Assembly (NCBI GenBank): GCA_019752335.1
Contig: JAIEMJ010000014.1
Span: 62,001 to 126,000 of the forward strand
Origin: Bryobacteraceae bacterium
GTDB lineage: Bacteria > Acidobacteriota > Terriglobia > Bryobacterales > Bryobacteraceae
DNA length: 64,000 bases
Reading direction: 5' to 3'
The position numbers were made by a program, and so were the translations under genes. Of this stretch, positions 48,629-50,752 are shown piece by piece (position 1 is the first letter of the stretch; every line of letters begins with the position of its first letter). Below the pieces are notes generated by a model. That model was not told the origin of the DNA, did not search any database, and saw nothing but the letters and a program-made list of their open reading frames with translations.

Positions 48629-50752
48629 ATGGGCAAAGGCATTAAGATCGTCGAAAAAGCGGCCGTGGTGGCCGCGCGCGCTGGCTGGGTAGTGTTCGAT
48701 AAGCTGAATAGTTTCAATCAGAAGGCGTCGTTTACGCCGAAGTGGTCCGATAAGCCGCTGTTGAAGTCCTACCAAAAGACGAAGCCCCCGCTGGGCTGGC
48801 CCCGCACGACCGACTCTCTTTGCCCCAAGTGTATCCCTGACCTCCGCAAGCGCATCCTCGACGGCGAACTGCCGGTGGAAATCCTCAAGAACGACAAGCT
48901 CGGCGAGATCAAAGCGCAGATCATCGAGCGCGACGGCAAGATCTGGATGGTCAAAGAGTGCCCGACGCATGGCAAGTTTGAAGACTTGATGGCCATGGAC
49001 AAGGCCTTCTTCAAGCACCTGGAAGACGTCTTCCCCGGTCGCGACATCCGCGCCCACAACGACGAGAAGCTCCACAACCACGGCTCTTCCACCATCACCC
49101 ACGGCCGCGGCTCGGTGCTCACCATCGACCTTACCAACCGCTGCAACATGATGTGCGACCCCTGCTTCATGGACGCGAACCAAGTCGGCTTCGTGCATGA
49201 ACTCACCTGGGACGACATCAAGACGATGCTCGACAACGCCATCACGATTAAGCCGCGCCGCCAGATGTCGGTGCAGTTTTCGGGTGGTGAGCCGACGCTT
49301 TCGCCTTACTTCCTGGACGCCGTCCGCTACGCCCGCAAGGTGGGCTATAGCTCGGTGCAAGCTGCCACCAACGGCATTGAGTTCGCCAAGAGCCCTGAGT
49401 TTTCCCGCGCCGCCGCCGAAGCGGGCCTCCGTTATGCGTACCTGCAGTTCGACGGCATCGGCAACGCGCCCAACTCGCACCGCGCCGTCGGCAACCTGTT
49501 CGACGTGAAAATGCGCGCCATCGAGAACCTCTACTCGGGCGGCGTCGACATCGTCCCCGTTACCACGATCATCAACGGCATCAACAATGAGCAGGTGGGC
49601 CGCATCGTCGAGTTCGCGCTCGATAACCCCAAGAAGATCCCCTTCATCAGCTTCCAGCCCGTCTCTTTCACGGGCCGCGACGAGGCCGTCAGCGACGAGC
49701 GCCGCACCGCCCAGCGCTACACGCTCAGCCACCTCGCCCACGACGTGAAGAACCAGAATGGCATCGGCGAACCCACCCGCGATTGGTTCCCCATCTCCTT
49801 CATGTCGACGTTCTCTGACTTCGCCGATCTCGTACACGGCCCGAACCGCGATTGGGGCCAGCTCTCCTGCGGCTGCCACCCGAACTGCGGCATCGGCCTG
49901 GCCGTGATGATCGACAAAGAAACCAAGGAGCGCGCCCCGGTCACTGCCTTCCTCCAGGCTGATCGTCTCGCCAAGGACATTGCCAAGATCAACGACGCCT
50001 CGCGGACCTCGAAGTGGATCAACATCGTGGGCGTCACGCTCGCGTTGATGCGCAACTACGATCCCTACCAGGCTCCGACGCATTTCAAGATCGTGGACCT
50101 GTTGCAGAAGTTCGACAAGTGCTTCGGCGCCACTGGCCGCGCGTACGGCAAGGTGGACGGCACCCGCACCCGCGAGGATATCGACAAGCGCCGCAACGAC
50201 CGTTGGAACTTCCTCTTCATCGCCGGCATGTGGTTCCAGGATCTGTTCAACTACGACTTCCGCCGCACCGAACAGTGCATCATCCCCTACGCCACCCAGG
50301 AAGGCGAGATCAGCTTCTGCGCCTACAACACGGGTGTCGGCTGGCGCAACATCGTTGAGAAGATGCACATGTCCGCCACGCTCACCAAGTGGTACGAGGA
50401 GCATGGCCGCCACAAGATCTACGCCGGCGGCAAGGACGTTGACCTCCTCTCGAAGGACCATTCGCTCATCCTCAACGCCGAAGCGGTGGCTCAGGCTGCC
50501 CAGACCGATCTCGACAAGACCGGCGTGGCCAAGACGGCGCGCGAAGAGAAGCTCCGCGCTCGCGCCTTGAAGCAGCAGCAGGATGCCGAAAACGCCAAGA
50601 TGGAGAAGCTCTACCGCGAGCACGTCCTGGGCGAGAAGCCGGGCGCGGGCCTGGTGCAGATCGGCTTCGGCGCCCCCGCCGCTTCCGATATTCCGCTCCC
50701 GATCATCAAGCCGGCGGTGAAGCAGGAAGAAGTCGGCAGCATGGGCGACTAA
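48629..50752 (+). CDS. Radical SAM protein of the Tes (tetraether synthase)-like type
   Basis: This 707-residue protein has the radical SAM cluster motif C172-x3-C176-x2-C179 in LTNRCNMMCDPCF and the SAM-binding FSGGEPTLSP (about residues 214-223). The N-terminus carries a zinc-binding-like module C65-x2-C68 ... C111-x2-H114 (LCPKC, and KECPTHG), as in the archaeal GDGT/MAT synthase family. Further cysteines in LSCGCHPNCGIG (about 412-423) could hold another cluster. The end is charged and helical (550-650). Acidobacteria make membrane-spanning iso-diabolic acid lipids, and bacterial enzymes related to Tes are proposed for this. A role in joining lipid tails is thus a reasonable inference. 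It is monocistronic between two intrinsic terminators. Confidence 0.8.
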   Translation: MGKGIKIVEKAAVVAARAGWVVFDKLNSFNQKASFTPKWSDKPLLKSYQKTKPPLGWPRTTDSLCPKCIPDLRKRILDGELPVEILKNDKLGEIKAQIIERDGKIWMVKECPTHGKFEDLMAMDKAFFKHLEDVFPGRDIRAHNDEKLHNHGSSTITHGRGSVLTIDLTNRCNMMCDPCFMDANQVGFVHELTWDDIKTMLDNAITIKPRRQMSVQFSGGEPTLSPYFLDAVRYARKVGYSSVQAATNGIEFAKSPEFSRAAAEAGLRYAYLQFDGIGNAPNSHRAVGNLFDVKMRAIENLYSGGVDIVPVTTIINGINNEQVGRIVEFALDNPKKIPFISFQPVSFTGRDEAVSDERRTAQRYTLSHLAHDVKNQNGIGEPTRDWFPISFMSTFSDFADLVHGPNRDWGQLSCGCHPNCGIGLAVMIDKETKERAPVTAFLQADRLAKDIAKINDASRTSKWINIVGVTLALMRNYDPYQAPTHFKIVDLLQKFDKCFGATGRAYGKVDGTRTREDIDKRRNDRWNFLFIAGMWFQDLFNYDFRRTEQCIIPYATQEGEISFCAYNTGVGWRNIVEKMHMSATLTKWYEEHGRHKIYAGGKDVDLLSKDHSLILNAEAVAQAAQTDLDKTGVAKTAREEKLRARALKQQQDAENAKMEKLYREHVLGEKPGAGLVQIGFGAPAASDIPLPIIKPAVKQEEVGSMGD

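Follow-up and report, generated by a model that had tools for sequence, protein, structure and literature searches.

A class of radical SAM enzymes on the tetraether synthase branch as best candidate for membrane-spanning lipid synthesis in a group of Acidobacteriota

We find that a gene in a 64,000-nucleotide stretch of a Bryobacteraceae genome (assembly GCA_019752335.1, contig JAIEMJ010000014.1, positions 62,001 to 126,000; hereafter the window) encodes a protein on the tetraether synthase (Tes) branch of the radical S-adenosylmethionine (SAM) enzymes, and that it is the best candidate in this group for membrane-spanning lipid synthesis. The gene lies on the forward strand at 48629..50752, as do the features described within it. 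It belongs to a set of acidobacterial genes that we call class B; class A denotes the archaeal-like Tes of Acidobacteriota and class C the TrsS-like proteins, all three labels being our own. Class B is probably an enzyme for coupling lipid tails, in a form adapted to the iso-branched lipids of bacteria, and most likely works like Tes but departs from it in two respects, its profile score and its N-terminal cluster. That acidobacterial Tes homologs make membrane-spanning lipids has already been proposed (PMC8941075, PMC10087280; papers are cited by PMC number). The lipid role is therefore an earlier published hypothesis, and what is new here is the variant architecture and its distribution.

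The open reading frame (ORF) is genuine, running for 707 amino acids from the ATG at 48629 to the TAA that ends at 50752. It is not a chance ORF, since its translation matches Pfam models (three matches in all, among them Radical_SAM at 7.5e-16 and Zn_ribbon_HMPTM at 2.8e-15) and the NCBIfam Tes model, and since relatives are 74-96% identical to it (best 80 of at least 584 confirmed stretches in a scan of named genomes). The closest named record among the matches listed is a Bryobacter sp. metagenome-assembled genome (MAG), whose protein is 96% identical. All the motifs named in the original prediction are present in the translation: CPKC (C65, C68), CPTHG (C111, H114), the radical SAM motif CNMMCDPC (C172, C176, C179), and SCGCHPNCG (C414, C416, C420).

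The same prediction had called the protein a relative of archaeal tetraether synthase, and four lines of evidence bear this out. The best NCBIfam family is Tes (NF045702; 2.2e-96, 323.4 bits, profile positions 2-482 of 486), followed by TrsS (1.1e-60, 205 bits) and an intein-bearing Tes model, after which scores drop to 73 bits. The best solved structure by sequence is the Tes of Methanocaldococcus jannaschii, GDGT-MAS, at 6.4e-62 (2.6e-69 with a 53-sequence profile), and the next is MoaA at 3e-5 (3e-6 with that profile). An AlphaFold model built with 53 close sequences has a mean predicted local distance difference test (pLDDT) score of 67.4 and a predicted template modeling (TM) score of 0.75, the metal-binding stretches being its poor parts; in Foldseek its best matches are the Tes structures 7tom (E = 8e-24) and 7tol (E = 2e-23), at 26% identity, with the next match at 8e-7. 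The TM scores are 0.70 (7tom) and 0.71 (7tol) over the target and 0.51 over the query.

The fourth line is a tree of 44 chosen sequences (534 columns, careful search, a single archaeal sequence). Class B forms one clade (100/100), and a further split (100/100) places it together with class A and archaeal Tes, apart from the TrsS-like proteins; a quick tree of 67 rows agrees, though with long branches. Phylogeny with Tes, which had been suggested as a check, thus groups class B with the Tes side and not among methylthiotransferases. The nearest rows to class B are L060 and L062, and a forced clade of class A with M. jannaschii is not rejected (P = 0.244, approximately unbiased test), so that origins of class B inside class A and beside it are both compatible with the tree. 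Profile, solved structure, fold, and tree together support placement on the Tes branch. Two other families were considered: neither the three Pfam matches nor the top 25 of the 49 NCBIfam matches include MiaB or RimO, and membership of the Gms family was rejected by architecture, no SPASM match being found in Pfam at E ≤ 1e-1. In control genomes, only three of 14 match the Tes profile at E ≤ 1e-30, all of them archaea over the curated cut-off (M. jannaschii, S. acidocaldarius, and M. acetivorans). At 1e-20, though not at 1e-30, B. subtilis and T. composti match as well, so weak matches to this profile mean little.

For a comparison at the level of residues, sequences were assigned to class B if they had >45% identity to the window protein and the motif CDPCF (L144 and L145 were placed by hand). 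Conservation of the radical SAM cysteines is therefore partly built in; the N-terminal cluster played no part in the assignment. Duplicates (L193-L197), truncated or split genes (L015, L061, L165, L078, L134, and L095), and unclassed fragments are excluded. The 103 class B rows include the window gene (L001) and do not equal 103 independent species, since L024 and L064 represent the same gene from a single near relative. The 11 class C rows were chosen from genomes with middling scores, and four of them were scanned against NCBIfam. Tes residues are numbered as in M. jannaschii, and residue roles are those of PMC9433317.

Class B keeps the residues of most metal sites of Tes. The rubredoxin-type site, C65-x2-C68-x42-C111-x2-H114 (codons 65-114, 48821..48970; Pfam PF23545 and alignment), has the C33 and H36 columns in 103 of 103 sequences, and C65 and C68 are invariant across 53 class B sequences; its inner spacing is x42, against x20 in the C9/C12/C33/H36 site of M. 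jannaschii. The radical SAM CxxxCxxC (codons 172-179, 49142..49165) and the SAM-pocket loop QPVSFTGR (codons 343-350, 49655..49678, corresponding to Q268, S271, and R275) are likewise present in all 103. So is CGCHPNC (codons 414-420, 49868..49888), in which C420 corresponds to C338 of Tes, and C414 and C416 are extra cysteines. Three further invariant residues are the methionine of codon 534 (50228..50230), matching Met439, the labile ligand of the Tes C-terminal cluster, and the cysteines of codons 550 (50276..50278) and 564 (50318..50320), matching C455 and C470. These four C-terminal residues are thus complete in class B (103/103) and in class A (40/40); class C keeps C338 in three of 11 sequences, C455 in two, C470 in two, and Met439 in four. 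Met439 is a ligand of this cluster in Tes (PMC9433317), and we read C338, C455, and C470 as its putative other ligands. By analogy, the kept cluster would be the one to which Tes is taken to bind substrate carbon.

The N-terminal auxiliary [4Fe-4S] cluster presents the opposite picture. Its cysteines, C73, C77, and C80, occur in none of 103 class B sequences but in 40 of 40 of class A and 11 of 11 of class C. In alignments the counterpart region of the window protein (codons 138-160, 49040..49108) is shortened and has conserved histidines instead of cysteines. These cysteines are found in class A and class C as well as in archaeal Tes, so the simplest account of their absence from class B is that they were lost. 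The archaeal Tes layout that the original prediction saw in this protein accordingly holds for the rubredoxin-type, radical SAM, and C-terminal cluster residues and fails for the N-terminal auxiliary cysteines. That first reading had missed the absence of the cysteines of one of the three [4Fe-4S] clusters of Tes, and also a helix at the N terminus and a lengthened C-terminal tail, both lying beyond the stretch aligned with Tes. In the literature searched, to which Sahonero-Canavesi 2022 and supplements did not belong, we found no description of a Tes class without the N-terminal cluster.

The helix is predicted from the model and the hydrophobic moment to be basic and amphipathic, and it spans codons 3-27 (48635..48709), outside the part aligned with Tes. 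Its pLDDT is 88-95 by blocks of ten in the AlphaFold model, and its hydrophobic moment of 0.467 is reached by 0.9% of shuffles. It can be placed in 89 of the 103 class B sequences, which are related, and in all 89 at most 5% of shuffles score as high. It may serve as a membrane-surface anchor.

From these residues a mechanism modeled on Tes can be proposed. The enzyme would sit on the membrane by its predicted N-terminal helix, and the rubredoxin-type iron site, together with a donor yet to be named, would feed in electrons. The radical SAM cluster, whose motif is intact, would cleave SAM, and the resulting 5′-deoxyadenosyl radical would take hydrogen from the end of an iso-C15 tail. The substrate carbon might then be parked on a sulfur of the C-terminal cluster, itself presumably held by C420, C550, C564, and M534. 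M. jannaschii Tes purified from E. coli holds a bacterial phospholipid (PMC9433317).

Class B is widespread in the phylum. Among 395 Acidobacteriota genomes at least 90% complete, it was matched at E ≤ 1e-130 in 180, which comprise all 54 rows for the window's own genome and its family and class, together with 126 of the 341 remaining genomes. Class A-type matches over the Tes cut-off occur in 33 of the 395. In a set of 61 near relatives, the own genome counted, 58 have a Tes-profile match that reaches 1e-20, and in 10 the score passes the cut-off; there, matches over the cut-off are of ∼550 amino acids (class A) and those of the window type of ∼700 (class B). Identity of class B to the window protein is 60-62% in the genome group f3, of the same order, 71-80% in family f8, 64-79% in those genomes of other classes that are listed, and 56-57% for L144 and L145. 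The class B tree departs from taxonomy, in that f3 (L017-L033) groups with the Chloracidobacterium-like L146, while f8 and f62 (L147), from other orders or classes and 71-80% identical, group with the window. Either an ancient duplication with losses or gene transfer could account for this mismatch. L146 itself belongs to f36. Many genomes of another acidobacterial family, f26 (e.g., G153, G185, and G333), have two class B copies; identity to the window protein is 64-68% for the first copies.

In each of the three sampled f8 genomes that have class A, its gene is found close to the class B gene. In G302 (L193:6821-11001) they are ∼250-400 bp apart on one strand, the start of class A being uncertain, and in G125 (L194:6991-16478) and G167 (L195:8256-15489) they are 3.4-5.7 kb apart, again on one strand. 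In the window's family, seven genomes have both classes, on different contigs. The closeness in f8 hints at one pathway, no more. After the pair in G302 come a DUF4440 gene and an HhH-GPD repair gene, and no pathway operon is seen.

Within its own genome (7.2 Mb, 55 contigs), the window gene alone reaches 1e-20 with the Tes profile; three other matches at E ≤ 1e-5 score 26-64 bits. There are 22 Pfam radical SAM matches in this genome, of which 20 others were scanned against NCBIfam, with C5:96741 outside that scan. Twelve of the 20 pass a curated cut-off (MoaA, MiaB, two LipA, MqnC, MtaB, HpnJ, RimO, HpnH, two RlmN, and a CUAEP-tail protein), while HemW falls just below its cut-off, a QueE-like protein falls well below, and L184 and L187 are loosely named. 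The genome also encodes, at L191:1151-4645 (G000:C20), a 1165-amino acid protein with two BcrAD_BadFG stretches and a DUF2229, preceded by a 377-amino acid gene without a Pfam match. This layout is tied to Ger/PlsA ether-lipid enzymes (PMC13274423), but as support from an ether-lipid partner it is weak and was left out, since the controls T. maritima, T. composti, D. chartae, and L. lactis also match.

Class B is the sole full-length Tes-like gene in all nine Acidobacteriaceae genomes not titled as MAGs (Acidipila rosea, Acidipila EB88, KBS 83, ZG23-2, Granulicella aggregans, S156, L60, and Edaphobacter lichenicola M8UP22 and M8UP30). Further Tes-profile matches in the nine are a partial one of 178 bits in M8UP30, pieces of 94 and 89 bits in S156, and generic ones of 62-68 bits in three genomes. 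Class B is also carried by three phototrophic genomes with a photosystem-type reaction center, which we take to be Chloracidobacterium, of subdivision 4. These occurrences can be set beside the published lipids. High iso-diabolic acid is called common in Acidobacteriaceae (PMC6252331), and six Edaphobacter strains, including E. aggregans and the E. lichenicola type strain (a different strain from M8UP22 and M8UP30), contain 11.8%-30.4% of it (PMC11354219). For E. aggregans a single Tes homolog is described, with 32% identity (PMC8941075). The acid is common to subdivision 4 strains (PMC4644332) and was found in subdivisions 1, 3, 4, and 6 of seven surveyed (PMC13274423).

In Granulicella sp. 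S156, whose genome also holds L106, the two adjoining Tes-profile pieces (G457:C15:706310-707337) are in different frames and perhaps represent a broken second Tes-like gene.

Several observations weigh against a coupling role for class B. The score of 323.4 bits lies under the curated Tes equivalog cut-off of 450 bits, and because that cut-off is missed we file the protein as a variant on the Tes branch and not as an equivalog. Class B is unmatched in 215 of the 395 phylum genomes, f9, f10, f12, and f28 genomes among them (20 of the 215 are listed, all grouped as same phylum). Among the 61 near relatives, by a split read from scores and positions, seven have no class B-like match (three have no match, and four have class A alone, in one case a fragment), and seven more have a partial one only. 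Acidipila is tabulated without iso-diabolic acid in a genus table of PMC6252331, yet class B is present in A. rosea; not every fatty acid protocol is able to detect this lipid (PMC11354219). No neighboring family occurs in more than 15 of 80 named loci, so that an operon was rejected, which also counts against the role. Bacterial Tes homolog activity was unconfirmed as of 2025 according to PMC11868695, and in the literature we found neither activity, product, or lipid data on any class B protein nor a confirmation of the coupling enzyme of Acidobacteria.

Some of the evidence points more specifically to a different product: class B might modify lipid tails otherwise, for instance by adding a methyl group, closing a ring, or cross-linking a single lipid internally, with one of the unnamed radical SAM enzymes making iso-diabolic acid. 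We consider this unlikely, though not negligibly so. The SAM-pocket residue R210 is replaced in class B (R in three of 103, K in 56, A in 36), and, since the role of the N-terminal cluster in Tes is undefined, its loss might change the reaction. Four of the 20 scanned radical SAM proteins of the own genome (L178, L183, L188, and L189) have no clear name. Solibacter usitatus, according to PMC10087280, has two Tes homologs and abundant branched glycerol dialkyl glycerol tetraethers (GDGTs) but no detectable iso-diabolic acid. The Mss of T. maritima has been confirmed in E. coli (PMC11604127), and the T. maritima genome has no match to the Tes profile at 1e-20 (it matches at 1e-15), which indicates that another enzyme can do the coupling. 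Against all this stand the four residues that would hold the carbon-parking cluster, none of them lost in any of the 103 class B sequences; and the Gms enzyme that cross-links glycerol monoalkyl glycerol tetraethers (GMGTs) is a SPASM protein (PMC11186832), a domain for which the window protein gave no match.

It is still less probable that a Tes-fold enzyme has here been recruited to a substrate other than membrane lipids. The gene stands alone and its neighbors are not conserved, and the neighboring family, TrsS, is named differently, so further roles of the fold are conceivable; but the C-terminal cluster residues mostly lost in TrsS-like proteins are conserved in class B, the N-terminal helix is amphipathic, and the class B distribution fits the lipid in those groups where a check was possible. 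Next to no credence can be given to the reading as a methylthiotransferase of the radical SAM type or as some other unrelated enzyme: we found no support for it, MiaB, MtaB, and RimO are separate genes in the own genome, and with Tes and TrsS as nearest families it is contradicted by profile, structure, fold, and tree. Coupling of lipid tails by class B remains our preferred interpretation.

Comparison with known systems places class B more exactly. With Tes (Saci_0703, MA_1486, and MJ0619; also NF045702, 7tol, and 7tom) it aligns over the full length, sharing the rubredoxin-type C/H pair, the radical SAM cluster, Q268/S271/R275, C338, C455, C470, and Met439; it differs in lacking the N-terminal auxiliary cysteines, in mostly losing R210, in the added N-terminal helix and C-terminal tail, in CGCHPNC, and in its sub-cut-off score. 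Class A is on the same branch and 29-36% identical to the window protein, but is shorter (median 547 amino acids vs. 703) and keeps all cluster cysteines (40/40). The 40%-42% homologs of S. usitatus and Koribacter (PMC8941075) are probably class A. TrsS (NF045646), found as class C in other Acidobacteriota, aligns in its N-terminal and radical SAM parts, but it forms a separate clade with the N-terminal cluster cysteines in 11 of 11 and the C-terminal ones mostly lost. Mss is said, in work of Sahonero-Canavesi in 2022, to be the membrane-spanning lipid synthase of Thermotoga and Bacillota; its proposed job is equivalent, and the comparison made here is through the indirect T. maritima profile controls. 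A modeled Mss shares the catalytic architecture of Tes (PMC13274423). Gms, the GMGT synthase, is likewise a radical SAM enzyme that couples carbons of lipid chains, but has a SPASM domain with two four-cysteine auxiliary clusters (PMC11186832).

Iso-diabolic acid and bacterial branched GDGTs underlie a widely used palaeothermometer. Class B is mostly single-copy, stands alone, is conserved throughout the group, and differs from archaeal-like Tes, which is rarer; it offers a clean target and could be used in reading metagenomes; if active, it would show which metal sites of Tes are needed to form a bond between two sp3 carbons. It is possible, though as a whole rather doubtful, that class B makes the iso-diabolic acid of Acidobacteria and is at the same time a Tes in simplified form, the surface N-terminal [4Fe-4S] cluster being dispensable for the joining of two unactivated carbons, and that this loss, combined with anchoring to the membrane, opened the chemistry to aerobes and let membrane-spanning lipids become common in several acidobacterial classes.

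Locally, the description of the gene as a single-gene unit between terminators is plausible, more securely on one side than on the other. Downstream, a hairpin at 50853..50884 (−25.6 kcal/mol, z −5.1; hairpin fold and consensus scan) is an intrinsic terminator separating the gene from a convergent TrkA/ion-channel gene. Upstream, the preceding ORF stops at 48436, before a hairpin with a T run at 48521..48554 on the forward strand, the likely intrinsic terminator of that gene; its −13.6 kcal/mol is weak against shuffles (z only −1.1; 25 of 200 fold equally well). The terminator consensus scan gives five sites, against 2.4 expected by chance, and of the two flanking hairpins flags the downstream one only. 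In the named loci, the recurring neighbors recognized by eye (a QueG-like protein and an ABC-transporter protein) are not lipid genes; neighbor ORFs were picked crudely, the Tes-like gene itself being caught in 69 sources, the window included.

Selenocysteine was considered since one in-match stop (TGA, TAG, or TAA) was flagged in several class B matches, and was ruled out. Of 11 such matches fetched and checked, four had alignments that ran over the normal C-terminal stop (query 680-682), and seven had no stop within the aligned part. In one Bryobacterales MAG the class B gene contains an in-frame TAG (L095:7297-7299) at the codon matching K433, which points to an assembly error or a decayed gene. 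Two class B genes, 76-78% identical to that of the window, are on contigs titled Bordetella parapertussis MAG and Rhodanobacteraceae (L102 and L141), most likely mislabeled records. Several f28 genomes of the phylum sample have no Tes-like match at 1e-30, and two other f28 genomes carry TrsS-like genes; nine of the 11 class C rows (L148-L156, L163, and L164) are from genomes without class B. Elsewhere in the window, at 41425-47557, three genes belong to planctomycete-type families of unknown function (PSD1/PSCyt2, a PSD2-5/PSCyt3 set, and DUF1552).

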